Shown here: positions 12,485-49,708 of the stretch, piece by piece
Position numbering within the stretch: position 1 is the first letter of the stretch
Layout of the letters: each line of letters opens with the position of its first letter
Source of the DNA: Peronospora farinosa
Lineage: Eukaryota > Oomycota > Peronosporomycetes > Peronosporales > Peronosporaceae
DNA length: 64,000 nt
Assembly (NCBI GenBank): GCA_947646735.1
Contig: CANTFK010000994.1
Location: 434,001 to 498,000 of the forward strand
Reading direction: 5' to 3'
Program-made: the position numbers and the translations under genes
Notes under the pieces: model-generated
Told to the model about the DNA's origin: nothing
The model's database searches: none
What the model saw: only the letters and a program-made list of their open reading frames with translations

Positions 12485-12533
12485 CAAATCGGTGGAATTG
12501 TATCGCTGGCTGTCATAGCTCGTTCAGTAAATA

Positions 12534-15095
12534 ATGAGCAGGAAGCAGGTCGAGGACGACGATCTGGTGATGACCATTGCGTCAGACGAAGAGTTGTCTG
12601 ACGTAGAGGACAGTTCGGACTCTTCTGATTCGGAAGACACTCAGTTCAAGAGTGCTGTGCTTAGCCGGCAGCAGCAGCTCAAGGAAGCGCAGCAGCAGCA
12701 AATGGAAAGCGAGATTGCCGAAGATTTTGAGTTTGAAGATGGCGGCGCTTTTCATACGTCTGGAGGAAGTTCATGGGACTTTACTGCTGCTATATCGCGT
12801 ATTGAAAAGATGGAGAGCGGGATCCCGACGGTTACCAAGCGTACGTCTATTCAGGATAAGATTGACAAGAGACGACAGGAAAAGGAGACAGAAAAACAGG
12901 TGAAAAAGGACAAGAAGAAGAAGAAAATACAGGTAGATGTCAAGCAGAGGAAAGAGGAGGAGACGGAAGGATCTCATGACAGTGAAGATGAGAAGGAGGG
13001 AGAGAAGGACTCGTCTGACGATGAGGAGAAGCAGGAGAGAGAAGAAGAGGATGTGGTGGTGGAGGAAGATCGTTTGCAGTCAGCCTTGAAAGATAACAAG
13101 AATGATCAGTTGTCTCGTGAGGAGCTAGTAGACGCATTGGAGAAGAAAAAGGCCGCCGAGTTTTTCGAGTCAGATCCATTTGCAGCACAGGAGTTTGCAA
13201 AGACCAAATTTGAGACCTTTGCAGACTTGAAATTATCGCGTCCGATCATGCGCGCTATCTCGCACATTGGCTTTGAAAAGCCAACGCCAATTCAACAGCG
13301 AGCAATCCCGATCGCGCTCACGGGCAAGGATATTTGTGCTAGTGCTCAGACAGGAAGTGGCAAGACTGCCGCATTCCTGTTGCCTATCTTGGAACGTCTT
13401 CAATTTCGTTCGCGTCGCGTACAGTCAACGCGAGTGATGATTATTTGTCCTGTGCGTGAGCTTGCGACGCAATGTCAGTCGATGTTCGAGCAGCTGGCGC
13501 GTTTTACGGACATTACGATCTCTTTGGCAGTGGGTGGTCTCCCCTTAAAGGCTCAGGAAGCTGAGCTGCGTAATCGTCCAGACGTTGTGGTGTGCACACC
13601 TGGTCGTATGATTGATCACCTGCGTAACTCCAAGAGTGTTCACATGGACGACCTAGAAATTCTGGTGCTGGATGAAGCTGATCGGCTGCTTGAGCTAGGT
13701 TTTACAGAGGAGGTGCTAGAGCTTGTCCGCATGTGTCCTGTGCAGCGCCAGACGATGCTGTTTTCCGCTACAATGACATCAAAGGTCGACCAGCTGATTA
13801 ATCTGTCGATGAAGCGTCCTGTGCGTATTAGCACTGACCCACTGTTTGATATGGCCAAGCACTTGGTGCAGGAGTTTGTGCGTATTCGTCCGAACCGTGA
13901 AGACGACCGTGAGGCAATTCTCCTAGCATTGTGCACACGTACGTTCCGAACAAACACTATTGTATTTATGGAGACGAAGTCGCATGCGCACCGAATGATG
14001 ATCATTTTCGGACTTACGGGCATTAAAGCTGCTGAACTCCACGGAAACTTAATGCAGAGAGAGCGGCTAGAAGCACTTCAAAAGTTCCGTGATGGCACGG
14101 TGGACGTTCTTCTGTGTACCGACATTGCTGCTCGTGGTATTGATGTGCGCGGTGTGCACGCTGTTATCAACTACGAAATGCCGAAGGATATCACAACGTA
14201 CGTGCACCGTGTGGGTCGCACGGCTCGAGCCGGTCGCAACGGCCGTGCTGTCACGCTAACTAGCGAGTCGCGCCGTCTGGTAATGAAGCAGATATCGCGT
14301 CATTGCAACGGATTCGTAAAATCCCGTGCTGTTCCTGACCCAGTTATCGCGCAATGGAAGGCCCGCATTGAGAGTATGCAGGAAGACATGAAGCTGGTAA
14401 TGCACGAAGAGACGCTAGAGAAGCGCATGCGTGAAGCCGAGAAGGAGGCTACTCGTGCCACGAACATGTTGAAGCACCGCGACGAGATTAATTCCCGTCC
14501 TGCACGCACGTGGTTTATGTCTGAGAAGGAGAAAAAGAATGTGAATGAGCGTGTTGATGACGATCGTCGCGCCAAGGAGGAGGCTGCAAAGGAAGACGCT
14601 GAGGCTGCCGACTCCATGTCGCGCGTGAAGAAGCTCAAGCTTATGAGCCACAAAAAACGTCGGTTGTATGAAATCCGTGAACGCGAAGAGCGAATGCTGG
14701 CGGATGCTAATCGAGAAGACGAAGAGGGCAACCGAAACATTAAGAAGGGCGCTGCGTTCACATCGATGCACGTTGCCGGTGCTGCGAAGCGCGCGAAAAA
14801 GACACAGCAGGAAACAGCACGATTGCGCGAGGAGGAGTCTATCGCAGACATCCACGAGCGGAAACGCCGTAGCCGTGAAAAGGCTCGTGCCGCGCGTAGC
14901 AGCCACAATCCTGGCGCATTCGACATTGACATGGCGCAAGATGGTGTTTCGGCGCAGAAGCCTCGGAAGCAGCGTGACGGAAACGCTGTCCACAATCCAT
15001 TCGAGTTCAAGGAGAAAATCACTGATTTCAAGAAACACGCGAAGAAGAGCTCGAGCTCTTTCAAGTCCAAGGCAAAGTACAAGCGGCGCAAATAG
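12534..15095 (+). CDS. DRS1: DEAD-box ATP-dependent RNA helicase, DRS1/DDX27 type
   Basis: An uninterrupted frame of 853 residues. Residues 1-215 are acidic with Lys-rich blocks. The helicase core runs from about 225 to 610: Q motif GFEKPTPIQQ, Walker A AQTGSGKT, PVRELA (motif Ia, more often PTRELA), TPGR, the DEAD box VLDEAD, SAT, and in the second RecA lobe ARGIDV and HRVGRTARAGR. Sequence between the lobes (VRIRPNREDDREAI, ELHGNLMQ) matches DDX27/Drs1 best among DEAD-box proteins. The basic helical C-terminus, rich in KKRR runs, suits nucleolar retention. Drs1 unwinds pre-rRNA during 60S subunit assembly. The gene is divergent from SCC3 and convergent with the HECT ligase, 202 bases away. 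Confidence 0.93.
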   Translation: MSRKQVEDDDLVMTIASDEELSDVEDSSDSSDSEDTQFKSAVLSRQQQLKEAQQQQMESEIAEDFEFEDGGAFHTSGGSSWDFTAAISRIEKMESGIPTVTKRTSIQDKIDKRRQEKETEKQVKKDKKKKKIQVDVKQRKEEETEGSHDSEDEKEGEKDSSDDEEKQEREEEDVVVEEDRLQSALKDNKNDQLSREELVDALEKKKAAEFFESDPFAAQEFAKTKFETFADLKLSRPIMRAISHIGFEKPTPIQQRAIPIALTGKDICASAQTGSGKTAAFLLPILERLQFRSRRVQSTRVMIICPVRELATQCQSMFEQLARFTDITISLAVGGLPLKAQEAELRNRPDVVVCTPGRMIDHLRNSKSVHMDDLEILVLDEADRLLELGFTEEVLELVRMCPVQRQTMLFSATMTSKVDQLINLSMKRPVRISTDPLFDMAKHLVQEFVRIRPNREDDREAILLALCTRTFRTNTIVFMETKSHAHRMMIIFGLTGIKAAELHGNLMQRERLEALQKFRDGTVDVLLCTDIAARGIDVRGVHAVINYEMPKDITTYVHRVGRTARAGRNGRAVTLTSESRRLVMKQISRHCNGFVKSRAVPDPVIAQWKARIESMQEDMKLVMHEETLEKRMREAEKEATRATNMLKHRDEINSRPARTWFMSEKEKKNVNERVDDDRRAKEEAAKEDAEAADSMSRVKKLKLMSHKKRRLYEIREREERMLADANREDEEGNRNIKKGAAFTSMHVAGAAKRAKKTQQETARLREEESIADIHERKRRSREKARAARSSHNPGAFDIDMAQDGVSAQKPRKQRDGNAVHNPFEFKEKITDFKKHAKKSSSSFKSKAKYKRRK

Positions 15096-15297: not shown

Positions 15298-18200
15298 TCA
15301 GCCGAAGCCAAAACCCTCCGAGCCTTCGCGAATTGCGAGCAGGAGACACTGCTTCAACTTATCCTCACTTTCATACTCTGGTAGATCCAGCTGGTTAAAA
15401 CTACAGCAAGAAGCATAAAAACATAACCCGTTAGCCATCCGTACGCATCAACTCGAAACAAATCATTCGAGCGAGACTCACCAAGTATGTGCGGACGGTA
15501 ACGCACTGTTGTTACCGAACGCCTTGTGAATGTTGAACTTCTGTGTCCCGCGCATACCTTCCAGTGCCTTGAAACCTTCAAGAGGTACCTTAGAGGTACC
15601 TGTTACGAACTGCAGGAAAAGAGCCCGCTCTTCGTGTGTGAACGAGTACAGCACGTTCCAGAACCAGCGTATTACCGAGTCCGTGGGCTTGTAGTTGGCG
15701 TAATCCGTATTCGCCTTCAAATCATCAATATCGATTTCAGGCATGCCCGAAATAAGCAACTCTAGCTCGTTCTCGTTAAAAATTGCAATCAGCTCGGGTG
15801 GTACCAGCTGGTGAAACCCCTTCAGGAAAGCATCAATCTGCTGACGAATACCAGTCGCCATGCGGTGATGAGTGATTAGTTTCACATACTCCATCTTGTT
15901 CGCGTCAGTTACAGGCACGTTCCTGCCGTTAGGAATCAAGTCAACCACCTCTACCTTGCCAAAGTTGGATTGCTCTGCTGAAAAAGTTAGCTCCAGTCCA
16001 AGATCTCCAATCGAGTTGTCTAGAATCGAATGAAGATTCCGGTAGTACTCCGGGTCAATGCCTTCCATGTCGTGGTACGAAATTGGCAGCTGCAAGATGT
16101 GCTTGTAAAACGAGCGCGTAAAGTGCGCATCAAGTAGCTGGCCGTCTGCCACCGCCTTGCCCAGCACTTTACCAACGAACTCAAAGTAACTTAAGTGATC
16201 TTTGTTCACATATGACAGAGGATTCGGCTGGAAAGTAGGCGAGTCCGCCGCTGACGTGAATAGCACATAATTTGGGTTGAACATCTCGCGCGCTAAAATC
16301 ATGTACCACTCTCGCGTGACTCCACCGGCATCAATACCTTCTTCGCCCGTGAAAGAAATATGCAGCTTTCGTCGCAATTCGGTACCGCTGCGCATACGCA
16401 AGGCATAGTAAGAGTCTTCGAATATATGCTCGCGGCGTACAGGGATGCGCACTGAGGAGCTTCCACCACCGTGGTTCCGCAGTGCCGCTTGACGAAGCCG
16501 TTTCATGGCGCTGTGAAAGTATGTACGCTTGTTGTCGAACGCTAGATAAGCTCGACAGCGAGAAATCTTTATTAAAGCAGCAAAGGACGTTTCCAGAAGT
16601 GATGGCTTCTCCCGTACTAGTAAGTTCAAGAGCACGCGATTCGACTCCACGAAGTTTGCCAGTCTCATAGTCTCATTTGCCTCCGAGACTGACGATAAAG
16701 CCGATGAGCTGCGTTTTAGCGCACTCTTCGGCGACGACTTTTGCTCTTGGTCATGCATTAGTGCTGTTGCATTCGCACCATCAAATCCACCAGCACTCAA
16801 GGCTGCCACAACTGCTTCTTCGCGCTCACTAGAATCAGGTAAATGCAACGTCATGGATGCCGCATCCCTGGCATTAACAACAAAAAAAGCCTCCACCATG
16901 GGTAGAAAACGTGCTAAAAGCGCCGCCATCGCGCATGAGGCACCCGCACTCTTGCCTTCAATCACAGTTCCCTCTGCATCGTCCGTTGTGCCAGGCTGAC
17001 CATTAAAATCTGTAGCCGAAGGAGCTTGGATGGTAGAAGGGGTGGCTAAAGCATCGGACGCACTGCTATCGTGATCATCAAGATCACCCTTCGCACGCGC
17101 TTCCGTAAGAGACAAGCTCAGAGAATCCCACAGTGGGTCCAAACAAATAGTTTGGCAGCACTCAGTAAATTCTGCAGTACTCTCGCAGACATCGGACAAA
17201 GAGTGTAGTAGCCGTAGCAGCTTGAGCTCATCCTGAGCCAATGGCAGCACTGCTGACGACTCAAACCCAGAAGGTAGACATTTTCCATTGTACCGGTCAA
17301 CACGAGCCAGCGTGCTAGCATGCCGTACAATCGCGCTGATGACAAGCTCGCGGTTTCCGCGCACATGGTTCAATAACTTCAGCACCGCAAGTGTGCGCTC
17401 CTGCATCTGGATCGTACACACGTCCATGCTCAATACAGACACGATTTTACTCATACGCGCTTCGTCCAGCTCCACCGTCGGCACTGCCACCCACTCGCCG
17501 CCACCTTCCAGGTTTGATGTGTCACCTTCATCGCCTTCCTTCTTCTCCTCGTCAACATCCGATTTGTGTAACCGCTCAAGGGGAGACAAAACCAGCTCAA
17601 GCAACTCGAGCAACGCATCTAAGTTTGTACCATTGCGATATACCACCGACAATGCCAGCAAGTCAATTAAGACGGCAACGCCGCACTCATTGGAGAACGG
17701 CGCCTCTACCTTCACTGGCGTGCACTTTTCATTCGAAACGCGAAGCATACCGTGGGGCGAAAGCATTTCCACGGTGAAACGCGGATTATACTTCGCAAGC
17801 GACACAAGAATATGTAACATGCGGTTCACCACTTCAGCAGGTACCGCTTTCCCTCCAATAGCACGGTTCCCTCCGATACCACATCCATACATCGTGGTCG
17901 GTGGGAATTGAATCTTACCGCTGCCATCATCGTCGTCATCTTTTTCATTGCCAGGTATTAAGCGCTCTGAAAGCGGTAAAGAGATCACTTGCAGCAAGTT
18001 ACGTCGAATGCTGCATCGTGTCAACGGATAAAGGCAGATATTTGCAAGCAGTCGCTGAAATACACGATTTTGTATGACGGACTGCGTCATAAAGAGAAGC
18101 CGCAACAAGCCGCGCACGCATCGATCGTCGAAGATTCGCTCACCGGGATCCTCTTCCTCATCCTTCTCTACACGCAATAATCCTTTGTGAGTCGTGGAAC

Positions 18201-21200
18201 TCCCTGTCCCTGAACGATAACCACGGCGGTTGCTATGACGTCCACCGATTTCATCATACATACGAGACCGCCGACGGCTAGTACCTCTTTCTGGGCTGTG
18301 AGAGGTTGTCATGCGTCGTAGAGTAGGGCGATTAAACAAATCGTCCATGTCATTTTCGCCGCTGCCACTTTCCCGCCCCTCGGTACGGCGATCACGTTCG
18401 CGGTAAACTGAGCGAAAGGCCGCGCGTTCACGCAGAACAGTCGCTTCTGCACGCACTTGCGATGGCAGCGTCTGCAGGAACGCATCATCGCAAGTGACCA
18501 AGATTTCCTCGCGCAGATCTGGTGCCAGCGAAGCTACAAAGGAAGCATTATCCATTTCTTGAGCGCGAGACGTGTCTGCAGATTCCGCGCGAGCGGCAGA
18601 TTCACGCTCACGCCGCTCATTTTCCAACACCTCTGCACGGATATCAGGGGGCAACGCTTCCAGTGTCTCACGATCGAAGCTCGAGTTAGCCATATCCAAG
18701 TCCATCTGTGACACACTTTCAGAACCACCTCTGCCACCTCCAGTCGTGGCTGTATCACTGCGAGCACTTGTGGATTCAGGAACTGCCGGTGCATTCTGCG
18801 CAACAATTTCTGCTTGCATATCCGGAGGTAACGACGCAAACACTTCAGCATCCATACCTTCAGGGCAAAGGTAGTCCTGTTGCTGCTGATCAAGTAATGT
18901 AGTCGACAACTCGAGCGCGACAGCTTCAACGGATGATGTCGGTGTCCTTATCGGTGACAGCTCTTCAACTGCCCTAACTTGGTTATTAGTGTCACTGGCG
19001 ATAGGCTGTGAAGAGGCCGTGCCGAAGCTTGTTAGATCGAGAGTGAAGTTCATCATCGGATCAGAAGAGTTAGATGCTGCTGCTGCAGTGGCTGAAGCAG
19101 ACGCTGGAGTGGGGAGCGGAGATATACTATCAGAAGTACCACCTGGTGCCCCAGATAAGGAGCCCATTGTCGTCTCTTGGCCTTCTACTACACTTTCCAC
19201 CTCTGCATCGACAATGTCCGCATCGACATCTGATTGAGGTGGTGACCGCAGCAGCGATGTTTCTCCAAGAGTACTGGTAAGTTCCAAAACAGAAGCTGCT
19301 TCCGTCACCACCTCGTGTTGCTCATTTCTGTTGCTGTTCGCTGGAATTCCCGGTTGATTATCGCTTTCTTCAGTGTTTTCATGTGCCCTAATTTCGCTCG
19401 CAGTGTGCTCTTCACTCAGCGGTGTCCCAGTAGCGCTTCCTCCTTCCATAATATCGTCGACATCCTCCTCCTGTTGAGAGGAGATTTCTCCTTCTGCTCG
19501 CCCAGCAGCAGGGATTACAGTAGCATCCTCGTCATCCGCACAAATGCGCGTAAATTGTTGTTCAAGTCGTGTCGCCACCGATCGGACATCTACATCACGA
19601 CTGACACCGCTTGGTCCCCAAATTGTCGTATTAGACGCTGTACCCCCAATTATGTCGCCACCTCGACTGTTAAGGCCACGGGATAAATCCATGCCCACGA
19701 AAACATCACTAAAGGTGTCCCGTTCGCTTTGTCGGAAACCGAGACGTTGGTTCCGTGAAGGCAGTGCCGAGGTCGGAATGTCCAGCGAAAACTCGTGGAG
19801 CAGATGGGATAAAGAAGACAAACGATTAGTATGACTTGGCGGTCGTCCTCGATTTCTTGTTTCGCGTTGCAATATTTCATGTCTCGGTATCAGTCGTACT
19901 CTACTCCCACCAAGCGGCAGCTGTGTTTGAACTTGGTCAGTCAGCTCGCGCAGCTCCCGCAACAGAGATGAATGTCGAGGCAGCGAATATCGACCGGGAT
20001 CGCGCAGCAAGCCGTTAGCATCCAAAACGATGGAATCTCCACGTCTATGCGTGCGCAGCAGTGGATGTGTAGTGGTGGTGTCCGAACCAAATTGATCAAT
20101 ACTCGTGCGGGACCCCAACGACAAACTGGTGCTACGTTCGCGACGTGATCTATTACCTCTACCACTTGCATCAAATGATTCGAAGGGAAAATCGTCATCG
20201 AGCATATCTGGTAGCTCTTCAATATACTGAAGTAGTGAAGTAGCCATACTGCCAGAGTTACTCTCCAATCGGCTTTGCGAACCTGAAAAATGCCCAGATC
20301 CATTTTCACTGCGCAGGCGACTTCTTGGGGCAGCAAGATCTTCTTGGGTATCGCCCACTTCGGCATCGTCTTCTACATCGCCAAATGTCAACACGAGAGT
20401 CTGTCCACTAGAGGCGGGACGGGGCCCACTTCCACTGCTGTTATACAGCCCAAATGCATCGCGCATGGACTCTACCAGTCTGTCCTCAGAGTTCCTTGCT
20501 AGCTGGTTCCCTTCGCTAGAGCTGTTACTCGATCTGGCATTTTGAGCAGCGGCCAGACGAGTGCGACGCCGTTGTTCTTCGGCAAAGAAAGCCTCATCAT
20601 CTAATATGTTCAAATAAGAAAACTCGTCTTCGTTAACCTCGTCCAATGCATCCAGAATCGACAGCTCCGAGTCGAGAGATCCCCAAAGACAATTTGAAGA
20701 TGAGCGGCGACTGGATCCGTGATCACCTATACGACGAGACATGTGTAAACGCTGGTGTTCTTCAAACTCATTTTCATCATCTTCATCCTCATCATCATCT
20801 TCATCCTCGTCATCATCATCTTCGTCATCGTCATCATCATCCTCGTCATCGTCATCATCATCCTCGTCGTCGTCGTCATCTTCTTCACCTTCCCCTTCAT
20901 CCGTAGAATGGTCTGAAACACTGCTGCGATCATCTCCGCTATGGTCTTCGTCCTCATCACGTATATCGTTGTTGTCCATTTCAGAAAGCGGAGATTGCAT
21001 CGAAATGTCGTCATCTCCTTCACCCAGCGGATAAAATGTAGTACCACGGGAATTTGCTGCATCTTGAAGATTTATATCCACCACCATGCTGTCGTCCCGA
21101 TTAGCAGATTGCCATGTATCACGATTATCCTCCAGTGACGATGAAGCTGAAATTGTAGTTGCTTCAGCTGAGGTCGACGTCTCTACGCCCGAAAGGGACT

Positions 21201-24200
21201 GATTTTGATTACCCCTTGCTAAAGTCGTATCGCCCACGATGGTGGAGCTGTTGTTTCGCTTTTTTAGCAAACGCCTTATGCGGTGAGTCACAAATGAACG
21301 CGTCAGCGTCGATAATGGGCGTAACAGCATCGTGCAGGTAGCGTGTGCCAATGGGTGCGTCAAGTCAATTTTTCGAAGAGCTTCGGCAAGTAGCGTCACA
21401 AATGAATGTTTGCCCTTAAGACCTCCTCCCAGCACGACCTTATCCCAGGCGAATCCTTTTGAAGAACCCTTAGGCCACAATATACTCATGATCAAACCTG
21501 ACCATGCGTGCAAAGAGCTCAAAGCTCGTTCATCACGCACACTCAAATCGAAGCTCTCCATGGAAAAATCCACATCATCAAATTGTGGCCATTTTTGAAG
21601 CAAGTGGACAAGGTCTAAGATAACACACTTTGAACCTTCTCCTGAATGGCTGCCGATGCTCACTAATAGTCTATGTGCATGATACACACGCAACCTTGTA
21701 CGACAGTCAACGAATGCTTTAACATCCGAGACAAGCAGATCTATATCGGCACTGCCAATTCTGCTGTTACCGTAATATCCGTCTTCCTTCAGCGCCTTAC
21801 GAGATGCCACGAACTGACAGAGTTCACGAGAAGGTAAAAACTCGCAGAGCACCAATCGAATAAAGCTCACGCGCTCTCCATGCAAAACAGCTTCATCTTT
21901 CGCCTTAGCCAGGACTGTCGCGCATGCTGGGAAGTAAGTAATCAGATGAACTAGTAACTGCATGTACACACCCACACACATTCCTGCGGATGTAGCTTCA
22001 ATCTCGTCACCCGATATAATTTTCTGTTTCTTGGCGTGTTTTTCAACGATCCACAACTTACTGATGCGACCAATTATTTTGTGCACAATAGCGTAAGCAT
22101 GATGTTTGTGATCCTTGGGAAATTTATGTGAAGATTTTGCTTCACTAGTCGCGCCATCTTGAGGCAAGAGAGGTTGCGAAACCTGTCCTATTGGTGTAAC
22201 GGTATTATCAGCATTTAACTGTCTCAATACAACGTATGTCCGGCCTGACTCGGTTTTCTTCACCCGCACCGACTTCTGCAATGCTTTAAGAAACACAAAT
22301 TCATTTCGAGCGGCAAAAGGAGCGACTTCTGTTAATAACGCACGCGGCGTGATACGCATCTGGTTTGGTAATCGTGCTGACAGCTTTGTAATTGCACGCC
22401 GAATTTTTTCTTCCATCATATGCTCTAAAACTTCAGGAGATTCTAGTGCCTGCGAGAGCAACATACCCGTCAGTTCTTGATATCCAACAAAAAATACACT
22501 TTCCGGGATATCCAACACAGCATCGAGACCACCATGCGCCAAGAAATAAGACGCCAGATCGTAATTCAAAGTCAAGCGCGACAGAAGCTGCCAAATGGCG
22601 TGAGCAGCCGATTTGCTAGCATTCGTTGAGAGTACTGACGATGCCCGCTTCAGTATTTGCAAGCAAATTGTAACAAGTTGCTGTTCGAATGCAAAGTCCT
22701 CAGTACGGTTCATTACACCACTGTCATCGCTTCGACCGTGTCCTTTCGACTTGTTCTCAGGGTCGTCCGCATTCCTCACGAAAGTATCATCAAGAGAGGA
22801 TGCGACTGTCGTAGATAATCGCTTTGCTGCCATCCCAGCTACTACTGCGTCAAGAGCTAATAGTACTGGCGTACATGATGGCTTTAGAAAACCCTTTTCA
22901 GTGATATCAGCACTTGAAACGTATGTTACGAGCTTTTCGATACACGAAGGAAATTGAACTTGCATCACGGCCCAAGAGCCAGAATTTAGCTGAAGCACAA
23001 GAGCTAATAGGTGGGTGAGCATGGTCAAATACTCATCCGCGTCTTCTTCACCTCCATTGAAGTAATCCAAAATAGCAGCATTCAGATGCCTAATTACCAA
23101 ATCACGGTCTTCATCTGAGCGTGAGCACAGAAAATTGAAATATTCTGCGATTGCCTTAACCAAATTTTGACTCGGGTACAATTTACGTTCGGCCTCCAAA
23201 CCTTTCGCATACTTCACATCTTCATGTTTTTCTTTGGCAGCTTGTATACGTAAGATTTCAAAGCACACTGTCTCAAAACTGTCTCGCAACAAAATGTAAA
23301 GCGCTTGCAAGTCTTCTTCCATCTTTTTTCCCCCCGTTGCTGCTGCTTCATCTCGACAAAGGGTACTTTCTGCAGCCGCACTGTCGTCGTCCTGCGCATG
23401 TTGTGTTTCACCAACGTCCGGCTCACTTTCGTCTTCGGGGTGGTTCAAAATCCATTCCATTGCCAGCTCCACATTGTTCACTTGGATTTGTCGCAATGCC
23501 CGCTCAACCTGTGGCTGCGGAAAGCCCATAGAAACCAAGCTCTCGACAATTTCAGCATCCGGTACGAACGACAAACGCCCATACCCGGCGGATGTCCCTT
23601 CGAGTGTCCCTCCAAAGAGTGCTCTTCGAAGAGATAATGCTTCGTTGTAGAGCTCGGTGCCGGAGTTTCTGTTAGAATTGCCGCGACTAAAGCCCAATTC
23701 TTGTCGACGACAAAGACCGCTTAGCTCATTTTCGCTGTCCAATCCCAAAGCTTCATCATTACTATCCATGCGATTCTTTAGTACGGTCACGGCAATAGGC
23801 ATCACCTCCGCCATACATAAATCCACAGACGAAGTCAGAAACTTTGGGTGCTTCCAAATTGACAGTAGCGCACGAACGCACATTGCATGCAATTGTACTG
23901 TAAGTCTTTGAGGCTGAAATGGAGCTTCATCACTTTCACCTGCTTTATCACTAGAAAGCAACGCTGCTGTCAACGGTGACGCAGACAGCGCTTCAAGGTT
24001 GGACAGTTTTCGTAAAACACTTGCTGCAATGTGGAAAGACGTCAACGCCATCTGCGAGGGCTTGCCACCACTAGAGCTACTCTCACTTTCGAGACAAACA
24101 GTGAAGAAACGCTCAATGATATTCATGATCACATCCATCAGGTTTGAAGCTATGACTTGAGCACCAGCGCACGTGGCGATAGTTTTGCCAGGCAGGACAG

Positions 24201-27200
24201 CATCGCTTTTTCTTTCACAGACGTTTTCGTAAACCATTGCAACATCTTCATTGAGTAATCGGGAAGGTTCGGTCAAAACTTCCGAAACTTCACTTATGGG
24301 CTTCATGAGCTCCACCAGCAACAAAGTATTAGCTTGCTTTTTCTTTCCCTCGAAAAGCACAATTGAGATCGTCTCCAAAAGGAACGTGAGGTAGTACTGC
24401 TGCACGAATGTGTCAATCTGTGTCGCACGATACACTGAAACGACATAAAAAAGATGGCTTTCTAAAACCTGCGCAACCATCCGTGCGAGTGCTCGAGCAT
24501 GAGGTGCTAGAGGTACCGCGGTATCGTCCCCTCGGTGCTGCTGCATCAAAGCCGATAGAAAAACCTTATTACAAGCCGTTAATAAGCTGCGCATGCTCAA
24601 CGAAAAGCGCAGAAGAAGAAGAGAGCCCACTTTCCAAAGGCCTGATTCCCCACAACCGCGTTCGGCGGCTAATGAATGGAATGTATCCTCTTCAGCCCCT
24701 TCAGTCGCCTCCATGCCGCTGCGCTGGCCATCATCAAACTCTGTCTTCTGTACCTTGATGTCCTTCTGTTTTCGCATCTTCTGGTGTAGTGTCGCAAGAC
24801 TTGCCCTTTCAAACTGAACAGAACGGTCCACACGGAACAAGCGCGTCATAACTTCTTGTGTTGAAGACGCTGTGAAATCAGCAAACCATCTCCGGCTCTG
24901 AGTATGAGTGTGCGCAGTTTCCAGCGTCCAGGTGAGCACGGACGCAAGCCATTCCAGCACAGACAACACTCGTAGATATTCATCTACAACCACCACCTTG
25001 GCAACAGCGGGTTCCGTGGCAGTACTCTCATCATGTACATATGTCAGTTTTGCCAAATCGACATTTGGTAATGAGCTCAGCACCGTTTCGGCGCCCTCAC
25101 CGCATTCGCCTAGGGCCCACGGTAGTCCAACCTTGGTGCGCGCACGTTGAAGATTGTTCAATTGTAAATTCAGTTCTTTTACAACAGCCCCGAGAAGATT
25201 AGTGGGTTGCTGGGATGCGTACGAACGAAGTACAAGAGTAATAGACTGCACCGCTGGATCATGAGACAGGGTGCTTTTGGGAAGCCTGCCTCGAGTGGTG
25301 CTTTCGCTAGGCAGAGCACTCTTTAAAAAGGACGTAGTGCTTGGCAAGATTAGCTGATATAGTCTTAAAAGCAGCTGAATGCCTTTTAGGTCCGCAAAAT
25401 AAGCAGCGTGCTCGGATTTGGATAGCAAAGGCTCCAACAAATCTGCCACATGCGTCGTCATTCGAATTAAAATACCGTTGGCCTTGACATTGAGGGGAGC
25501 CATTAAATTGCTTTCTTCGCCAAAACGAATCACCTTTTTTATTGCATGGACAGCAGCTTGAATAGCAGCATTTTGGAAACTTGGAACGTGTCGCATTAGT
25601 TCAAAAATACCGGTACCAACGACAGCCGCCGTATCACCATGGAAGCACCAATCTTTGGATTCTTCTTCGGTGTATTGCGGAAGTGCGAAAACGTCCAACA
25701 AGTGCATGAGTGGTTCAGCCTTTGCCACTTTTTCCGCATGTGTAGTTGTTAAGCACAAAGTATTCAACACTGTTGGAACTGCCGTGAGCAGTTCACTTGA
25801 CAGCGGTAATAGAATCCGAGATGGGTATAACTCTGCAACATTCCATCGCGTAAGTGTTTGCAAGAACGCATCTGCCAAGCCAGTAGCATGGACATGATTC
25901 ACACTGCTCGGATCGTTGTTGATAACATCAGAGACCACGATTGCCGCCTGAGCAAATACAGCTGGTCCAAATACGTCCACATTGGACAGCACTTGAAGTA
26001 ATGCTTTGTTAAGAGCGCTTCCCTCACGAATAGCGCGGCTCGTAGCCCCTGCACTCATCACACCTTGTGCATGAAACGACATTGATAACGACGCTAAGAT
26101 GGCTAGTAATAGCACGGTCTTTGTTTCAGAGCAAACCACAGACGAGTTTGTTGAGCTCTTTGAAAGCCCGACAAGACTGGCGCATTCTAGCTTGAGTCGA
26201 TCCACCAGTATTCCAACTCCGTTTAGGTTCCGGTAAAGCGCAGATGCTGCCGAGTGACTACTCACAATATTTTCCAGCGCTTGCACACATTGCGTTATCA
26301 CGGCCACGTGAAAAGCGCTCACCGCGGGCATTGTGAGCACATGCAAAAGGGCCGGAACGATCCCATTTTCCGTTAAAACAGCGGCACCAGACTGAATTGC
26401 TACCACAGCCGTCAGTAGTCCTAAAACACCCTCCATCCAGCACAGCCGTGTCTCCTGAATACTTCCACCACTAGTACTTCGGATTGAAGGTGCCCTAATT
26501 ATCTCAGCTTCCTGAGGGGATATTAAATCTGTTGTAGCCTGCACGAAAGCAACAGCTAGGCTCATATCCATATCTGCATCAGCAGTTTCCGATGCTACCG
26601 GGGGTGGAGACGCAAAAACTGACGTTGCTGTCGCAGAATCTTGCGTGGTAACGTCACCCAGCTCGGTCATACAATAGCGCACAAGCGAAGGGAAAATACC
26701 GTGTGGGGTCCCTTTTACAACCCCCAAAGCTTGAAATACGTTGGACTGGCGGCCAAGCACACCTATACCTCCTCCTCGGCCAACCCGATCGTTCACCAAA
26801 GCGGTAAGTACAAGCAACGCTGTGACACGCACACGCACAGGCACGCGCTCAATATTTTCGACGCGAATGAGCTCCACAATTCCCCTTGTTAGTTCTGGAT
26901 ATTTTTCCACGTAATTCGTTACGTCCCACGCATCACTGAAAAGAGAAAAAAGCGCAAGGAGCGCGTGCAGTCGATCTACCACCAAATTTTCTCTTGCAAA
27001 TGTACTGCGAGACGCATAACACGCACGCACTTGTGTGTATAGTTGAAAATGCAGCCTCTTTGGGATCTTGTGCTGCACTATCAAATGCTCACACGCTGTA
27101 GCCGCTGCACACGCAGCGTCTTCCAAAGTCGTGGTCGCTGTCACCACCTCTTCATAGGGCGGGACCACGACACTCACCACACGAGACGTCAAGTTTTCCC

Positions 27201-27867
27201 CCTCTTGGTCTGAACTGTAAAATTGGAACTCCACTTCCTGAACTGTCTCAGCGTTCGTTCCATTCAGATAATCCACAATTTCCAAGCTGTTTTTCGGCGC
27301 TCCCCGTCCTTGTGCGATCGTTAGCAACCGTCGTCTTAAATGATTATTTCTGGCCGCTGCAGGGTCTACAAAACTTACGGGGTCGGCAGCGTAACGATGA
27401 ACTTGAGGAGGTAAAGCCAGCATAGCTACCACCTTTGTAGCTTCCGCTACGACCCGTTCATTCCTTGCTGCTAGCAAGGCCATCACGGGTTCAATAGATG
27501 GGTACACAGCTTTATTTGCTGCATTTTTCAGTAAAAATCCAGAGAATTTTACGATTTCCACCACTTGTTCCGTCAATTCCCGCTCCGTCTGCTTGGTTAC
27601 CAGCACCTCCTCTGTCTTCTCCAGCTCTGTTCGAATGAATAATAAGACAGGACACTTCTCCATTGCAGACAACAGCAGTCTGTGTAGCTTCAAGAGCACG
27701 GGAAGCCAATTGGCCAAGTCTGCCTGGGCCTCCATAGGCCACCCCTTGACGCACGCCAGCAACGGTGCGACACGCTCATCAGGTGCTTGCATAAGCACGT
27801 CCATCATCTTTTTTTCTCTGTCACTGGGCGGTGTGCGCGGCGCGACGCCGACGCCAGTCGTCTGCAT
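15298..27867 (-). CDS. Giant HECT E3 ubiquitin ligase, HUWE1/TOM1/UPL1 type
   Basis: Exon 1 (27867-15482) is 12,386 bases without an intron. A second exon (15400-15298) follows an 81-nt GT-AG intron, giving 4162 residues. Residues 1 to ~1400 are helical armadillo-like repeats of the DUF908/DUF913 kind. A UBA domain ([19 protein letters not shown]) lies at about 1430-1475. A long Asp/Glu tract lies at about 2325-2370. Ubiquitin-binding UBM repeats, with the LPPDMQAEI and LPPDIRAEV signatures, lie at about 3000-3145. The HECT domain covers about 3790-4162. The catalytic cysteine (residue 4129, in THTCFNQL) has its codon split by the intron, and exon 2 supplies the canonical end through EGFGFG. 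The family ubiquitinates excess histones, ribosomal proteins and regulators. This domain order supports the HUWE1 class over other HECT ligases. Confidence 0.95.
20761..20890 (-). repeat. GAT/GAC trinucleotide tract encoding poly-Asp/Glu
   Basis: An imperfect (ATC/GTC) triplet run on the plus strand encodes about 43 acidic residues in the HECT ligase. On the plus strand it creates a spurious poly-Ser frame. Acidic tracts at this place are normal for HUWE1-class ligases; the triplet purity makes length variation likely. Confidence 0.8.
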
Positions 27868-28271
27868 CTCGGTTTTTCTCTGTTTTTTCCTGTTTTTTGG
27901 TCTCTAGAACCTCTACGAGAACGATCACGGGCTCTACACACGCAGAAGACAACGCGTTACCCAGTCCACTACTGCTCAGGCGTTTTAAAGCGCTGCTCGA
28001 GATAAGAGGACCGAGAGAAACGAGGGGTCGAATGCGGTCAAGTCTTCTTTCTTGCCGTTTCTTGTTTCTGGGGAGGAAATCTTCCAAGGGGAAGATGCCG
28101 ATTGGCTAATATTATTGTACGGGTCAAACCCGCAAAGCCCACGGGTTTTGGTTTTGTTTACGACCCGCAACATTATATCGGCAGGCCACGGACCGGGTAC
28201 GAGGCGTATATTGACCAATAGGAAGACAAGATGGGAACGTTCATCACTTCCAGACAAAATCTATAGTGTTT
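27868..28271. other. Intergenic promoter region of the HECT ligase
   Basis: About 400 bases separate the ligase start from the end of the deaminase homologue; both genes are on the minus strand. The segment contains an inverted CCAAT near 28092 and a CCAAT near 28215. I see no coding frame I trust. Confidence 0.5.
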
Positions 28272-30383
28272 CTAGTGCAGGAAGTACATGGACGCTGGGT
28301 TGTCAGTCTCCTCTTCGCAACGGAAGCCAACTTGGCCAAGAAACGCGTCGAAGGTCGCATTATCCTTTGGTGGCACTTGGAATCCGACGAGTACACGGCC
28401 GATATCTGCGCCATGATTGCGGTAGTGAAACAGACTTACGTTCCATTGACGAGAGGATTGACTGCGTTAACAGAGATAGCGTCAATTATTTTTTGCAGCT
28501 CAAAGATACAGAACAGCAATTACAGCAACGAATTGACGCACCTGAGAGCTTCAAGGAAGTCTTTGAGCGCACCGGGACGCTCTGGAAACTCCAATCGAAA
28601 CAGACGTTCGTTTGGGACCTAAATAATAAACAGCGCAAAATGTTCACGAGTGAGCACACATTACACCATCGCAGCCTCACCATAAGCAAAGCACACACGT
28701 TTTTTGGACGACCGCCAGCTAGATGGCGCAGGTGCGACTTGGCTAACTCATTTGAGGCCAAGTCAATGGCATGCATGTCGCCGCGCCCGTTGATTGCCTT
28801 CACGACGTTTATAAACTCGTCCTGCGTCTTTGTCTGGATGCTCATGCAGATGCGTGCTTCGTTATCACCTTCGGAGTCCATGCGGTACGAGAACTCGGTC
28901 ACGTTGTGAGGGACTGGTGCGAAATAGAAAGCCATGTACACAGCAGATTAGTGATGCTGAGTCCGCAACCGCCTGCAAATTTATTTCGTCGCGAACGTAC
29001 AGATGACGTTGTAGAGATCCTGGAAACTACCAATCTGCTCAGGAATTTTGACGGCCAAGAAACGCTCGCGATCATCCGAACGCTCCGAAACGAAGCGCAA
29101 TCGGTCAAAGTCCATATTTGCAGCAGCGAGCACTGCCACGTACTTTTCATTCTGGGCGTTCTTTACTTGAGCGTACTTTTTCGCACCAGCAACACTGATT
29201 GCACCTGCGTAGCAATTGCAGCAGACTGTAAGAAGTCTGCGTATACAAAATTATTTGTGTCAATCACTTGCACGTACCGGTGGGCTCCATGAGCGAGCGC
29301 GTGTCGCCAAACACATCCTTGATCGCAGAGCATATCTCGTCAGTCGATACGGTAATGACTTCGTCCACCAGATCTTTGCACAGCCGGAAGTTCTCCGTTC
29401 CAATGCTCTTGATGCCCACTTCATCTGTAAAGCGGTTAACGCTCGAGAAAGCTACAGGCAAGCCCTGCTGCAGCGATATCTCTAAAAGATTGGCACTTTC
29501 AGCCTCCACGCCGATAATTTTGACATCGGGCGCCACCTCTTTCACGTAAGCGGCAAGGCCAGCAATCAATCCACCACCTCCAACAGGGGCAAATATCGCT
29601 GTAGGGCGATCTCCAGCCGTCTGCTCAGACATGAACATCATTGAGCAGAGCATCTACACAAAAACAACTTGGCTACATCAGTTGCGCCTATACCTCTTTC
29701 AGGATCTCCATACCAATTGTGCCATTGCCAGCGATCACAAGCGGGTCGTCGAACGGGTGGACAAGAGATCGACCCTCAGTTTGCGCAACTCGAAACGCTT
29801 CTTTCTGCATTTAAAAGGCATTAGTCAAGTCACATCAGAACACTCCCACTTGCAACAAATTTCGATCGCCAACGCACCAGTGATGCATCAAAATCTGCAC
29901 CGTATTCGACGATCGTAATCTTGTTCTTAGTAAAGTAAGACACGTTTTGCGTCGTTCCAACAGGCGAGATGACAATAGCGTCCACATCTAGCTTAGCAGC
30001 AGCGTAAGCCACGCCTTCCAAGTGATTACCAGCTGCGCAAGCCACGATGCCCTTTTTTCGCTGGGCCGGCGTCAAGTTGGCAATCTTGTTGTAAGCACCA
30101 CGTACGCTGAATGAGAATGTTGGTTGCATGTCCTGAAGCAAGTAGTACTCGTCAGTGCGTGGACAGCAGATAAACAAAAAGGACAGACACACAGCACCTC
30201 GCGCTTTAGAAAGAGACGGCAGTTGCCTGGTAGCGACTGTGTTAGCGCCGGTGCAAGCTGCAGTGGCGTCTGGATAGCCACATCATATACATGACTCTCG
30301 AGTACTTCACGAAGATAATCGTATGAGCCTGGACGCACCCAAGACGGCTTGGCGGTCAGCGAGGAGAGACCGCGGCGGAACAT
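28272..30383 (-). CDS. Threonine deaminase (IlvA) homologue with a dismantled PLP site
   Basis: Eight exons (30383-30198, 30132-29878, 29804-29694, 29653-29278, 29204-29001, 28913-28681, 28618-28542, 28461-28272) keep frame and give 543 residues. The first ~20 residues (MFRRGLSSLTAK) suit a mitochondrial presequence. The fold-type II PLP domain is recognisable from GVEAES, the phosphate loop PVGGGG and EPTG. Two ACT-like regulatory repeats follow, with VTEFSYR, HLAGGR, FEFPERPGAL-like and SLFHYRNHGADIGRVL. Normal enzymes deaminate threonine to 2-oxobutyrate, the first step to isoleucine. Here the PLP lysine of the SFK-RGAY motif is Ser71 (codon 30108-30106), the SAGNH loop reads AAGNH, and the SGAN motif near the pyridine nitrogen reads AAAN. 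Catalysis is therefore doubtful. Intron 29654-29693 is only 40 nt. Confidence 0.9.
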
Positions 30384-33205: not shown

Positions 33206-34733
33206 CCATCCCCCGTTTTAGCACGATTTTTACATTTTGTAAAACATCGCCTAGGCGACAGAGAGACTTGCGAGCCGTTATAAACGCGCCGCTTAGTCTA
33301 CTTAATTCTCATGCCACCGAAAGTGGTAAGGCTGATGGGTCGCCTGCAAAGGCACCCATGCAGTCCAACACTAAGCACACGCGCCGCGATTTATCGCAGC
33401 CCTCGTAAAGTGCTTCAGGCACTGAGGTGAATCTCCCATCTCACGCTAATGTGGATGAAGATCCATCTCTTACTATAGATTAAAATGAGACTACACCATT
33501 GCCATCACCACAAAGTGGAGATGAGAAAAGAGCATTGATGGGACATATGTCCCCTTCATTCGAGGCACCCGTCCTTGAGGTAGCATCTATGCTTCCTACA
33601 AGCGAAGGTAAAGCCTCGTCGCCTGCGCCTACGAGAGCAGCGACCAAGACTGAGCACGCTACTTCGAAAGGAGTAGTAGCGACTCAGTCAGATGTGACTA
33701 CTCATGCTGATGTCTTGACAACCATAATGGAGAGTCAGACTCAGGTGAGTGTGAGCTTAAAGCTCCACCAAGTACACCGTCGGCCTCACTAGCCCGCCGT
33801 CGCGAGGGCGGCTACGTGAGTGGTGGCTTACCACCAATTCCACCTCCATCTGAGTGGAGAAACTCGAAGGGGTCTAGTGCAGCGCTTTTGCAGCGTGCAA
33901 CTATTGACGCTCATAAGTTTATAGCGTCTTTCCCTTGTGAAAAAAGCAGGGCAAAGCACTTGGTCGTGCTTTCCCAATTCCGTTCGTGCTGCGTTCTAAC
34001 GAAGCAGCCGACGAATATGAAGCTGAACTTCGGCGCCGTGTAACGCTGCATGTAGATGCAACGAAACAACGGTCGCAGCGAATCAGCTTCGCCATGAAGC
34101 GTGCGTATGGAATCTTGGGTGGTAAGTGAACCCCAATTGATTCTCGCCACGCATTTTCTGCTAGTTCATCCGGACCTAGCAGGAAGACGACAGCTGGTGC
34201 TGCTTCATATAAGCAGCCACCAGCCCAGGCACGTCGACGCGCATAGCGTCCACAGGCTCTTATGAGTCAAAGCTCGTTGGGTAACCCTTCCACTGGACAA
34301 GGATTTGGAGCTTTCGCTTCACAAACCGGTGGGCCAACAGCCTTCCAACAAGAAAGCGCGTATTCCCTTACGTATCCACCAACACAATGGCGATTATGCC
34401 AACCTACTCGCGGCTGCCTACCCTGCTGCTTTTCAGTCGCAGGCTGAGTCTGCTGCGCTGAAGAGGCAGGTGGCGGATCTCGAGATTCAAGTCTCGCGAC
34501 TGACTTTGGATCTGCGCGATGTGAGGACGAGGGACCGTCAGGAGTATGACCGCCTGAAGATCTGTTTGGACATCTTAGAGCAACTGGTGATGAGAGACCC
34601 GCGTCAAGAGCGTAGTTCTCCACGAACACCGAGTCCTCTATCGCCTCACTATACGGGTAGCCTCTCGGCTTCTTCGTCGTCTGATCGGCCGCGACGCTCG
34701 ACTCACAGTCGACGTCACCATCGGTCTCGTTAG
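33193..34733 (+). pseudogene. TE-A antisense ORF region ending in a coiled coil
   Basis: Plus-strand frames run through this segment opposite to gag-pol. The first part is Ser/Thr/Ala-rich (33193-33408 and 33499-33792). A charged helical part near 33980-34120 (NEAADEYEAELRRRV) follows, then the best piece, 34305-34733. In that last piece, residues about 48-95 form a leucine-heptad coiled coil (LKRQVADLEIQVSRLTLDLR) with a Ser/Arg-rich tail. Several stops and frame changes break it. No chromodomain or other pol motif is visible on the opposite strand here, which argues that the plus strand is the coding one. Function unknown; it is not a standard Gypsy gene. Confidence 0.5.
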
Positions 34734-36806
34734 ACCGATGTGGATATGTGATCAATTCTGGATCAACATACCGTTTCAGACGACACACGTAAAATACGGG
34801 GTGCGTCTTCATATACGGTGGGAGAGTGAGCCTATAATTTAGGTCTTCAACTTTTTCAACCACTGTAAAGGGCCCAATGAATCGGGGCAATAGCTTAGTA
34901 GTACCACCAGGTAGTACAGAAGTTGCATGTTTAGGTAGGGTAGCAGTACTTAATCGCACTTTGTCCCACACTAAAGTATTCATTGTTTTTGCGACCATGC
35001 TGGTCTGCATATTATTTTTGCTTGTCCTGTTCTCTTGCCATTGCGTCACGGACTTTACGTGTGATGGCTTATCGCTCATCCACAAAGCGCTGAGCTTCGT
35101 TCACGCTTTTAGCATCCAGCTCGCCTATGACGCCTCCAAGAGTTCGTTCATGGGTCGACGCTGTTAATGACACTATAGTGTCATCGTCTAGGAGCACTGG
35201 TATTTCTTGCCGTGTTTCTCCATTGACACCTATTGGTGCCGTGACCACTGCTAAACTAGCAGTGTCAATAGGGAAATTTTGGCCCTCTTTGGCATCCACA
35301 CCGAGAGTGAGGGGCCCTCCCCCACTAAGACTCGGGCTGCGTACAAACGAGACTGGCGTTCGAGGATGACGCAGTCCGTTAATGTAAAACGGTGTTTCAC
35401 TCGTACTGGCGTGAACACTATTATCAATAGTGAGCTCCACGAATGGCAATTGCTTGCTCCATTCTTTGGATGTTGCTACTGTACGCAACACATCCACCAC
35501 GACTCGATTGGCCCGATCGGTTTGGCCATCAGTTTGGGGATGATCAGCGGTTGACATGTGGAGCTTGCTACCCAGCAGCTCAAACACATGTCACCAAAAA
35601 CCCGACGTAAAACGCGGATCCCGGTCCGATCCTATGGACTCGGGCATCCCGTGTAGTCGATACACGTGATCCAGAAACAAGAGGGCAGCCTCTTTTCCTG
35701 AGATCTTGGTGCTACATGGTGCCAAATGCACCATCTTGCTCAGTCAGTCTACAAAGACGACTAGCCTCGTCCTGCCTATATGGTCAGGCGGTAAGCTAAA
35801 CATGAAGTCCAAGCTGACCGACTTCCAACAATCAGTTGGAATCGGCAGTGGCTTCAGTGGCGCAATGTTCGAAGGTGCAGGCTTTATGCGCTGACACTTT
35901 TCGCAAAAGCGAATATAGTTGGCCATCCAGCGGTAGGGGTGGGGCACAAAATTCCTCTGACACTCGTAAGAATGTCTTTTCACGGTCCAGATGCCCACTA
36001 GATGGCGTATCATGGCACTCGTGAAGTATCATCAGCTTGAGATCTGTGTCATGAGGGACATAATTTCTCAAGGGATCACAGGGTGACAGTTGATGCCATA
36101 GCAGGCCATCACTGTAACTCAAGCGATTAAATTCCGCTTTGAGTTGCGACGTAAGGGTAATCTTTCGTCCACCAAAATGATCCAACAGCAGGCGACAATG
36201 TTCGTCCTGACTGTAAGACTCTTTTATAACGGACGCCATTGAGCTCGTCACATGGTAGGCCTTCATGACTGCCAATGTTGACGACTCACCTTGTGCTTTC
36301 GCACGTGATACACTTTCCTGGTGCCTTGCCTCGAAGTCTGGTCTGCGCGATAACGCGTTAGACAAGACATTCGACTTACCCGGCTTATATTCAACTTTGA
36401 AATTGAATTCAGAGAAGAATGTTAGCCATCTCGTCATTCTCGGCGAGAGGTGCAGTGAATTTATAGCGGTCCGCAGTGATGCGTGATCCGTATAAACCAC
36501 AAAAGGTTTGTTGCCCAAGAGGTGCACACGAAACTTCAAAAGGGCATACTTTATTGAAATTAGCTCCATGTCATGCACAGGGTAATTCAGCTCGGCAGCT
36601 TTTAAAAGCCGAGACTGATAAGATGTGACACGGTCAACGCCGTTGTCATCCTTCTGCATGAGAGCGCTGCCGATTGCAAAATTGCTTACATCGCAGACGA
36701 CGCTAAAGGGCTTATCCGCGTCTAGCAATACACCAACACCGGTGCCTCTACAAGAGATTGCTTCACTGACGTGAACGCATCTTCTTGCTCCTTTGACCAA
36801 GTCCAT
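34267..36806 (-). pseudogene. TE-A RNase H and integrase remnants
   Basis: From 36806 down: an RNase H domain (VVYTDHASLRTAI and YKPGKSNVLSNALSRRPD), a damaged integrase zinc-binding region (36100-35840), integrase core start CEKCQRIKPAPS with VSLDFMFSLPP (36013-35744), DRDPRFTSGF near 35610, STADHPQTDGQTDRANR (35587-35069) and a post-integrase segment PRFIGPFTVVEKVEDLNYRL (near 34880). Stops and shifts separate these pieces. A chromodomain, present in TE-C, is not seen. Confidence 0.85.
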
Positions 36807-37902
36807 TCTGCATCCTTTTTCAAAAGGTCAGACAATGGCTTAGTCTGCTCCGCATAATTCTTGCTGTACTTACGCAAGTAATTAGAGAGCCCAAGGAATT
36901 GGAGCACATCCTTCACATGACGTGGGACTGGCCATTCCTTTACAGCCTTTACTTTTTCTGGGTCTGCTCGTACACCATATGCACCTACTATGAAGCCCAG
37001 TACAGGTATCTCGGGGACCCCTATTACGCACTTTTGCAAGCAAACGTATAATTGGGCGTCGCCCAGAGTCTGCAACACAGCGTCTAAATGACGCTTGTGC
37101 GACTATATCACGCTCAGACCGTCCTCCGCCCTACTATGCACGAATACATCGTTAAAGTAATGGGGCGCGTAGGCACAATGCTGACGCATCACGTGAGCCA
37201 CCACTCGGTTGAATGTTGCCGGAGCATTTTTAACCCTTGTGGCATCACAAGCCACTCCCACAGCATACCGCTTGGGGTGCTTACTGCCGTTTTGGCTACA
37301 TCAGTATCTCTCATGAGAATCTGATAGTAGCCATCCTTCAGATCCAACGCAAAAAATATAGTTAACTTTCCCATGGAGTTCAACAAGACATCTTTTCGCG
37401 GGATTGGCGTTTGCGCCGGAAAGGTAGCCGTGTTCAGCTTGTTATAAGCATGAACCACGCGCCATCCACCTGTTGCTTTACGCACACAGAAGGTCGGGCT
37501 GCAGTGAGGCGACTTGCTCTCAAGTACATGTCCCGTCTTAGCCCGCTTGTCGAAGAACTCATAGATGTAATCGACTTGTTCCTTCGGCAACGGCCATTGC
37601 CTGGTCACACAATACTTGGTGCCAGGTTCCAAGTCAATCTCGTGCCTGATGCCCATATCGGCCGGTAGGCGGCTCGGCACTTCTGCTGGAAACACATCAC
37701 GGTGTTTCCACAGAACATCATAGAGCGGGCTGTCCTTCAAGGCATCCCAGCCTTGAGCAGCGAACCGTTTCTTTTTGTCGGTCTCCAAGACGCTCTCATC
37801 CATTGTGGATGAAGAGCAGCAGTCCACCACGTTCTCTTTTGGAACTGGTGTGACTATCTCGTGGATCTTACCTTCCTTTTTTCGGACAGAAACAGATACC
37901 AC
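36722..37902 (-). pseudogene. TE-A reverse transcriptase, catalytic Asp changed
   Basis: The fingers and palm are clear (KYCVTRQWPLPKEQV, SPTFCVRKATGGWRVVHAYNKLN, ALDLKDGYYQIL, TPSGMLWEWLVMPQG). A frameshift follows LVMPQGLK near 37210. The active-site box, usually YFDD, reads YFND at about 37150, so the first catalytic aspartate of the pair is Asn. The connection to RNase H continues through RADPEKVKAVKEWP to 36722. Confidence 0.88.
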
Positions 37903-37964
37903 GTCATCTCCGAGAGATTGACTATCTCCTCGGCAGATGGCAAGACAAGTTGGAGCACCTCAAC

Positions 37965-38552
37965 TTAGGATGCCTCCGGCATTTTGTCTTCGACGGCCTC
38001 GAACAACTCGTTCGTAGGTCCGTCCTCTTGGACCGAGATAGATCCAAGGGTCACTCGTTTCGACGTGCCCTTGATCGTCTTAATACGTCTGGTGCTCGTT
38101 CGAGTCACCACGACCTTTGACCTGGAAGAAGGTGTCGTTGCTATCTCAGCTAACGCACTCCTTACAACCGCACCAGGCTCTTGGCTCTGTGCCGGTTCTT
38201 GTGGCGCTTGACTTCCTGTCAGCCCACCATCAACTGCCACATGCTCTCGGCTCTGTGCAGGACTATTGGAAGCATGACTACCTGCCATCGCCCCATTCAC
38301 TACACCAGTCTTTTCGACCTGGGTAGGAATATGTGTCACCTGGCTTTCCGCCAGTGCACTTCCAACTACACCACTCCTTTCGAGCTGGGTAGTTCCTGGT
38401 GTCGATTGACATACCGTCATCGCACCCTCGACTGTGTTGGACACAACATCAGTCACAAAAGCCTCTCGCAAGAGCACATCCTTCCCGGTGTCTTGCGTAG
38501 AGCTAGCGACTGTGCGTGTACGCCAGTCAATACATGGTTGGTGTTTAGACAA
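37965..38552 (-). pseudogene. TE-A protease-RT linker with degenerate repeats
   Basis: A 195-codon frame between protease and RT. Residues about 60-135 contain three to four degenerate ~22-residue repeats of the pattern GVVxSALAxSQxxxxPxQ, followed by a basic segment. It has no catalytic motif and probably acts as a spacer in the polyprotein. Confidence 0.55.
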
Positions 38553-38815
38553 CCAAGGCTACCTAGGATTTGGTCACACGGGCTCTTCATACCTAGCACT
38601 GTGAACTTCTCTTTACAAGAGAAGTCACTGAAACTGAAGGCGAGTTCAACTTGAACTCCCTCCGACTTAACGAGCGCACCGTTCGCTAAACGAACCATCG
38701 CCTCTTCTCGCTTGCCATCCTGGCAAAGCGACTCATAACTCGCCGGTCTCCTTTTCAGAGCCGCGAGTTTCACAAAGTTTTGTGATGCACCCGAATCCAC
38801 GAGAAGGGCCACCAC
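38453..38815 (-). pseudogene. TE-A retropepsin-type protease
   Basis: The catalytic signature LVDSGASQNFV lies at residues 5-15 of this frame, followed by a beta-rich segment typical of Gypsy proteases. Its 5' part lies in the duplicated segment 38616-39083, so a second copy of the DSGA start exists upstream. Confidence 0.8.
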
Positions 38816-49564: not shown

Positions 49565-49708
49565 CTAAACTGATCTCCAGGACTCTGCTGCAATTGGCAA
49601 CGATCGCAAGGGAGCCTGTGACGATGGAGATGGCTTCACACGCTGGCATATTTCGCACGTTCGGATCCAGTTGCGTACCCACTTATACATGTGGGGCCAG
49701 AAGAAGTC

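Follow-up and report, generated by a model that had tools for sequence, protein, structure and literature searches.

A 64,000-nucleotide stretch of Peronospora farinosa DNA (contig CANTFK010000994.1, positions 434,001 to 498,000; "the window" in what follows, with coordinates counted from its first base) contains a gene for a homolog of threonine deaminase (IlvA) in which the lysine that forms the Schiff base with pyridoxal phosphate (PLP) is replaced by serine. The gene is located on the minus strand, from an ATG at 30383 to a TAG at 28272, and encodes 526 amino acids. Its product is almost certainly an ancient pseudoenzyme: catalytic residues have been lost, the fold is kept, and the protein appears to be under selection, with the absence of deaminase activity being what the missing residues would predict. 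The reading that we favor, with a probability of about 0.5, is that this "dead" IlvA would act as an isoleucine- and valine-responsive regulatory subunit of the active threonine deaminase.

Catalytic and regulatory residues

Codon 71 (30106..30108) is AGC, and alignment to the E. coli structure 1TDJ places the encoded serine at Lys62 of that enzyme. The sequence around it is SFSVRGAY, as compared to SFKIRGAY in the active paralogue from the same genome (see below). Two further motifs are altered, namely AAGNH in place of the usual SAGNH (residues 95-99, 30022..30036) and AAAN in place of SGAN (residues 325-328, 29116..29127); the serine of the latter motif touches the ring nitrogen of PLP. The PLP phosphate loop, GGGGL (residues 198-202, 29567..29581), is retained, and the protein matches the Pfam PALP domain of fold-type II PLP enzymes. 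All three substitutions had been proposed in the original prediction and are seen when the codons are read directly.

The distribution of this state was examined with three queries: the window protein, its active paralogue, and a profile built from the dead clade. From each search, in which about 8000 proteins were scored, the 120 best matches were taken. This produced 228 different proteins, which together with the window protein and the paralogue from its own genome make an alignment of 230 rows. The dead clade comprises 18 of these, the window protein and 17 orthologue models among the matches listed, and 16 rows can be read at the lysine site. At that site, 212 rows (211 listed proteins and the paralogue) have lysine, 11 have asparagine and 5 have serine, and the other 2 are gapped. 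Every row with asparagine or serine falls within the clade of the window protein, and none of the 16 readable clade members, the window protein included, has lysine. The loss of lysine is near certain to be conserved across the clade, and neither chance nor a read error accounts for it, because all such rows belong to this one clade and the 211 other listed proteins and the paralogue keep their lysine. Serine is seen in the window protein and in P0001-P0004, all from Peronospora. Asparagine is seen in Phytophthora (P. infestans, P. kernoviae, P. cactorum and P. fragariaefolia), Peronosclerospora, Plasmopara, three Pythium-type species and two environmental sequences, and the gaps belong to two short models, Albugo candida P0017 and Nothophytophthora P0015. 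A change from a lysine codon to AGC takes two steps, as had been pointed out in the original prediction, and its intermediate is thus represented among the relatives; as asparagine codons are one base away from both lysine and serine codons, the simple path would be Lys to Asn to Ser.

AAAN is found in all 18 clade rows, short ones counted, and AAGNH in 14 of the 16 readable ones, with SAGNH and SAGGH in the remaining two; the four glycines of the GGGGL loop are the same in 18 of 18. Loss of the reading frame is not general among the relatives, 13 of the 17 orthologue models being full-length (526-552 amino acids). Among the best 120 of 7999 proteins scored in the profile search, there was none named as coming from Saprolegnia or Achlya, nor any lysine-less protein that the other searches had missed, and the lysine-less form is likely absent outside the clade.

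The C-terminal, regulatory part of the protein is well preserved. PF00585 matches two stretches of P0001, the P. effusa orthologue, and these represent both ACT-like repeats. As P0001 and the window protein have all but 4 of 526 residues in common, the window probably comes from P. effusa or a very near relative. A study of yeast Ilv1 (PMC8904041) describes Tyr423 and Tyr526 as recognizing isoleucine, and His480 and Arg482 of the linker as important for feedback, Arg482 by way of its A. thaliana counterpart; in the Ilv1 model shown there, the C-terminal domains and the linker provide the main dimer contact. When residues are matched to Ilv1 by the motifs TEFxYR, HxRHLAGGR and FHYRNHG, the counterparts in the window protein are Tyr376, Tyr477, His427 and Arg429, all of them present, and they are kept in 17, 17, 18 and 18 of the 18 clade rows, respectively, both tyrosine exceptions being in the short model P0016. 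Identity to the active paralogue is 0.91 in the core of the second repeat (residues 471-493) and 0.72 in the linker. The listed VIA-align rows span mainly residues 15-344, and other regulatory folds are possible.

Rates of change and selection

We compared protein rates relative to the active paralogue in eight species for which both proteins were long enough. This gives 28 pairwise comparisons, not independent of each other, over 492 gap-free columns, with intervals bootstrapped over sites; the short P. cactorum pair and species without a listed active partner were excluded, and the Plasmopara pair may combine two species. For the catalytic half, the ratio of dead to active distances is 1.59 (1.29-1.96); for the regulatory half it is 0.81 (0.67-0.99), a borderline value. 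Raw counts of changes in three independent species pairs, dead versus active, are 16 and 5, 63 and 42, and 85 and 28 for the catalytic half, and 4 and 15, 46 and 39, and 45 and 47 for the regulatory half. The catalytic half of the dead protein consistently changes faster than that of the active enzyme, and constraint on the regulatory half is similar in the two proteins or slightly stronger in the dead one. Distances between dead proteins differ from those between active enzymes by a factor of about 1.6 at most.

Taking as reference the positions held at at least 95% in 186 lysine-bearing rows of the first alignment, and counting as kept those retained in at least 90% of clade rows, we find that the dead clade keeps 83 of 117 conserved catalytic positions versus 45 of 49 regulatory ones (p 0.004). 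Positions lost in every clade row number 16 of 117 and 3 of 49, respectively, a difference that is not significant (p 0.19). The 16 lost catalytic sites include the lysine, the residue after SAGNH, four sites in 118-129, Gln174, Asp226, three sites in the loop GLFADGAAV, which has become NRFTxEVGI, as well as Gly326 and four more.

The active paralogue and the pathway

The same genome encodes, at C235:29954-31573, a single-frame threonine deaminase of 539 amino acids with intact SFKIRGAY, SAGNHAQG and SGAN motifs, 48% identical to the window protein, which we infer to be the active enzyme. PF00585 matches in this genome occur only there and in the window (four matches in two places, five candidates scored). 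Two other candidates for a second IlvA copy, on C260 and C253, were rejected, as their six-frame reading and motifs point to other enzymes; they appear to encode a protein like cysteine synthase and one like serine racemase or hydroxyaspartate lyase. The C235 gene has no visible introns, as opposed to seven in its dead paralogue, and GC content at third codon positions is alike in the two (0.567 and 0.574) and does not discriminate between them. A ketol-acid reductoisomerase match on C32 and a match to the dihydroxyacid dehydratase family on C265 are also present, so the isoleucine/valine route probably runs in this organism.

Other species, too, have both kinds of protein. Among the matches listed, a lysine-less and a lysine-bearing protein occur together in Peronospora destructor, P. 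belbahrii, Peronosclerospora sorghi, Phytophthora cactorum (where both models are short), [Pythium] brassicae, P. oligandrum and P. insidiosum; in Plasmopara both kinds are present at the genus level.

The sequence facts of the original prediction hold, and its interpretation is partly supported; the isoleucine or valine binding and the pairing with an active paralogue suggested there are putative. A second copy with SFK in the genome was found, the ACT-like repeats are intact, as the two PF00585 stretches of P0001 indicate, and the suggested selection for a non-catalytic role agrees with the uniform loss of lysine, the mostly full-length orthologues, the presence of an active paralogue and the constrained regulatory half.

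Phylogeny and origin

The dead proteins form one clade both in a quick tree (57 rows, 16 of them dead, with P0010 and P0016 left out) and in a more careful one (42 rows, 9 dead), with long stems of 0.92 and 0.93, respectively. In the careful tree the clade is placed outside the clade of oomycete active enzymes; a topology that holds the two together is not rejected by the approximately unbiased (AU) test (p 0.183), so either a duplication of the oomycete enzyme or a separate acquisition may have given rise to the dead gene. The gene occurs in Peronosporales, in Pythium-type oomycetes and, judging from a short model, in Albugo. A lysine-less copy would have been kept since the common ancestor of the Pythium-type species and Peronospora, perhaps longer.

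A proposed regulatory subunit and its alternatives

If the dead protein is a regulatory subunit, the following scheme can be proposed. The protein, devoid of deaminase activity, would be imported into mitochondria, as suggested by its first 20 residues, which are basic and include no acidic ones; in the P. effusa model, the predicted local distance difference test score (pLDDT) is below 50 in residues 1-18 only. Using its ACT and linker region, it would then join the active threonine deaminase and take regulatory positions in a mixed oligomer, in which isoleucine inhibition and valine activation of the first step of isoleucine synthesis would be altered. As to the effect on the partner, we lean slightly towards tuning of feedback over activation of the prozyme type (see below), because the best-kept part of the protein is the one responsible for effector binding and contacts between subunits. 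A stronger version, in which threonine deaminase of Peronosporales and Pythium-type species would be a two-subunit enzyme, made of a catalytic IlvA and a dead IlvA that is obligatory and provides or resets its isoleucine/valine control, is conceivable, and we hold it only tentatively.

Several observations weigh against a regulatory subunit. Identity to the active paralogue is only 0.32 in the first ACT-like repeat, and the core of the second repeat is conserved across IlvA proteins generally, so its match to the paralogue is not specific to pairing. The interval of the regulatory ratio nearly reaches 1, and slower regulatory change is clear in one of the three independent species pairs, being otherwise an average. 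Four of the 17 orthologue models are short (P0010, 453 amino acids; P0015, 369; P0016, 354; P0017, 411), where either the models or the genes themselves may be truncated. Finally, the catalytic domain remains strongly conserved, and at 8 of the 16 sites that it has lost completely a single new residue is found in at least 90% of clade members, which hints at a function for the pocket.

Some of the same facts would be accommodated by a stand-alone sensor, whose ACT domains bind isoleucine or valine and act on a partner other than the active deaminase. The retained effector-site residues, the tight constraint on the regulatory domain, the divergence of the first ACT-like repeat from the paralogue and, in the best tree, the separation of the dead clade from the active enzymes of oomycetes all speak for it. 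Yet no partner or output domain is visible, a sensor has no obvious need for a conserved body of the catalytic domain, and the kept linker is an inter-subunit region in the Ilv1 model (PMC8904041); on the whole, we consider such a sensor unlikely. Uniform replacements in the pocket, e.g., Gly326Ala, Gly246Asn, Ala249Thr and Leu138Glu, and the invariant glycines of GGGGL could instead mean that the pocket has been remodeled for a new ligand or chemistry that does without a Schiff-base lysine, for example, non-covalent PLP or some other phosphate-bearing ligand on GGGGL. This appears less probable again, given that the former lysine position drifts between Asn and Ser, that positions 118-129 are variable, and that no replacement lysine is evident: of the lysines that at least 90% of clade members retain, Lys457 in the second ACT-like repeat is the only one that is rare in active enzymes.

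A mixed oligomer might also serve as a dominant-negative brake, with the dead subunit, which would dilute the active sites, merely lowering threonine deaminase output. Such a brake draws on the same evidence as the regulatory subunit; a plain poison subunit, however, needs no effector sites kept across orders, and we rank it lower still. That the gene is a pseudogene, a sequencing error or an annotation artifact, as might be thought from the missing catalytic residues and the short models among the orthologues listed, is hardly credible, since the same state is seen in several named species and lineages, most of the models have 526-552 residues, and the distances among dead proteins stay close to those among active enzymes. 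All things considered, the regulatory subunit is the reading that we retain.

Gene structure and surroundings

The eight exons proposed in the original prediction, when joined at GT/AG borders, result in a single frame of 526 codons. Exon 1 (30198..30383, residues 1-62) encodes the short basic presequence and the beginning of the catalytic domain, and exon 2 (29878..30132, residues 63-147) contains the former lysine site and AAGNH. Exons 3 (29694..29804, residues 148-184) and 4 (29278..29620, residues 185-298 and the first base of codon 299) follow, and exon 5 (29001..29204, residues 299-367) spans the end of the catalytic domain and the start of the regulatory one. Exon 6 (28699..28913, residues 367-438) carries the first ACT-like repeat and the linker; Tyr376-Arg377 lies in the former, and His427 and Arg429 in the latter. 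The second repeat begins in exon 7 (28542..28618, residues 439-464) and continues in exon 8 (28272..28461, residues 464-526 and TAG), which includes Tyr477-Arg478 within LFHYRNHG and a PF00585 match.

The donor of exon 6 is more likely GTGTGTGC after 28699, because relatives read RPEN-VPNERLF across the junction; a GTGAGG donor after 28681, which would give 532 amino acids, was rejected on the same grounds. The P. infestans model P0005 has 26 additional residues precisely at this junction, and Nothophytophthora P0015 has additional residues at the junction of exons 5 and 6, both resembling intron read-through. As these extra residues sit at exon junctions, the introns are probably common to the window gene and its relatives. 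For the environmental sequences P0007 and P0012, the coding regions would take up 1581 and 1584 bases of contigs that measure 1698 and 1641 bases, which fits spliced transcripts, the contigs presumably being derived from RNA.

About 400 bases downstream of the gene begins an uninterrupted minus-strand frame of 4141 codons (15478-27903) with HECT, UBA, UBM, DUF908 and DUF913 domains, which we take to be a HUWE1/Tom1-like ubiquitin ligase. An 854-codon frame for a DEAD-box helicase is found on the plus strand at 12531-15095, and pieces of retroelements, with matches to reverse transcriptase, RNase H, integrase and aspartyl protease, are located upstream of the gene on the minus strand (34267-38558 and 48452-53034).

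Annotation and comparison with known systems

P0001 and P0005 score 575.9 and 555.2 bits against the NCBIfam model TIGR01124, the threonine ammonia-lyase equivalog with a cut-off of 411.3; the scoring covered these 2 of the 17 listed dead proteins. Several members of the clade carry the name threonine dehydratase in UniRef. For P0001 and P0005 the active-enzyme label is an error, and, with the tested dead proteins passing TIGR01124 and others bearing an enzyme name, pathway reconstructions may tally a dead enzyme as threonine deaminase. No report of an oomycete threonine deaminase pseudoenzyme was found in the literature searched, which consisted mostly of titles and the beginnings of abstracts, with most subscription journals outside its scope.

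Among the known systems closest to the dead protein are the biosynthetic threonine deaminases with two ACT domains, such as E. coli IlvA (1TDJ, 9D2Q) and P. aeruginosa IlvA1 (8Y1J). The fold, the domain order, GGGGL, and the effector and linker residues of the ACT region are alike; in contrast to these enzymes, the dead protein lacks the PLP lysine and the SGAN serine, its SAGNH is altered and its pocket loops are rewritten, and for these reasons it should not be named an active threonine deaminase. A lysine-less copy with intact regulatory domains represents a natural split of sensing from catalysis. If the two-subunit arrangement is true, it would be a prozyme of branched-chain amino-acid synthesis, found in obligate biotrophs and free-living species alike; we know of no other prozyme in this pathway, though no search aimed at one was made.

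Regulation of active enzymes by dead paralogues is already known (PMC3663545, PMC12727527). In trypanosomes, complexes and activation of about 1200- and 3000-fold have been measured for prozymes (PMC3663545). The AdoMetDC prozyme and the dead deoxyhypusine synthase paralogue resemble the oomycete case in that a dead paralogue is found beside an active one in one genome; unlike them, the oomycete protein is known from sequence alone, and has ACT domains of a ligand-binding type of its own. The parent enzyme of another such protein, the TSB-like pseudoenzyme of eudicots, also belongs to fold type II. Both this pseudoenzyme and the dead IlvA are dead paralogues of PLP enzymes, although TSB-like acts on a different subunit (TSA) and belongs to another enzyme, pathway and kingdom; it keeps its allosteric function and activates TSA (PMC12727527).
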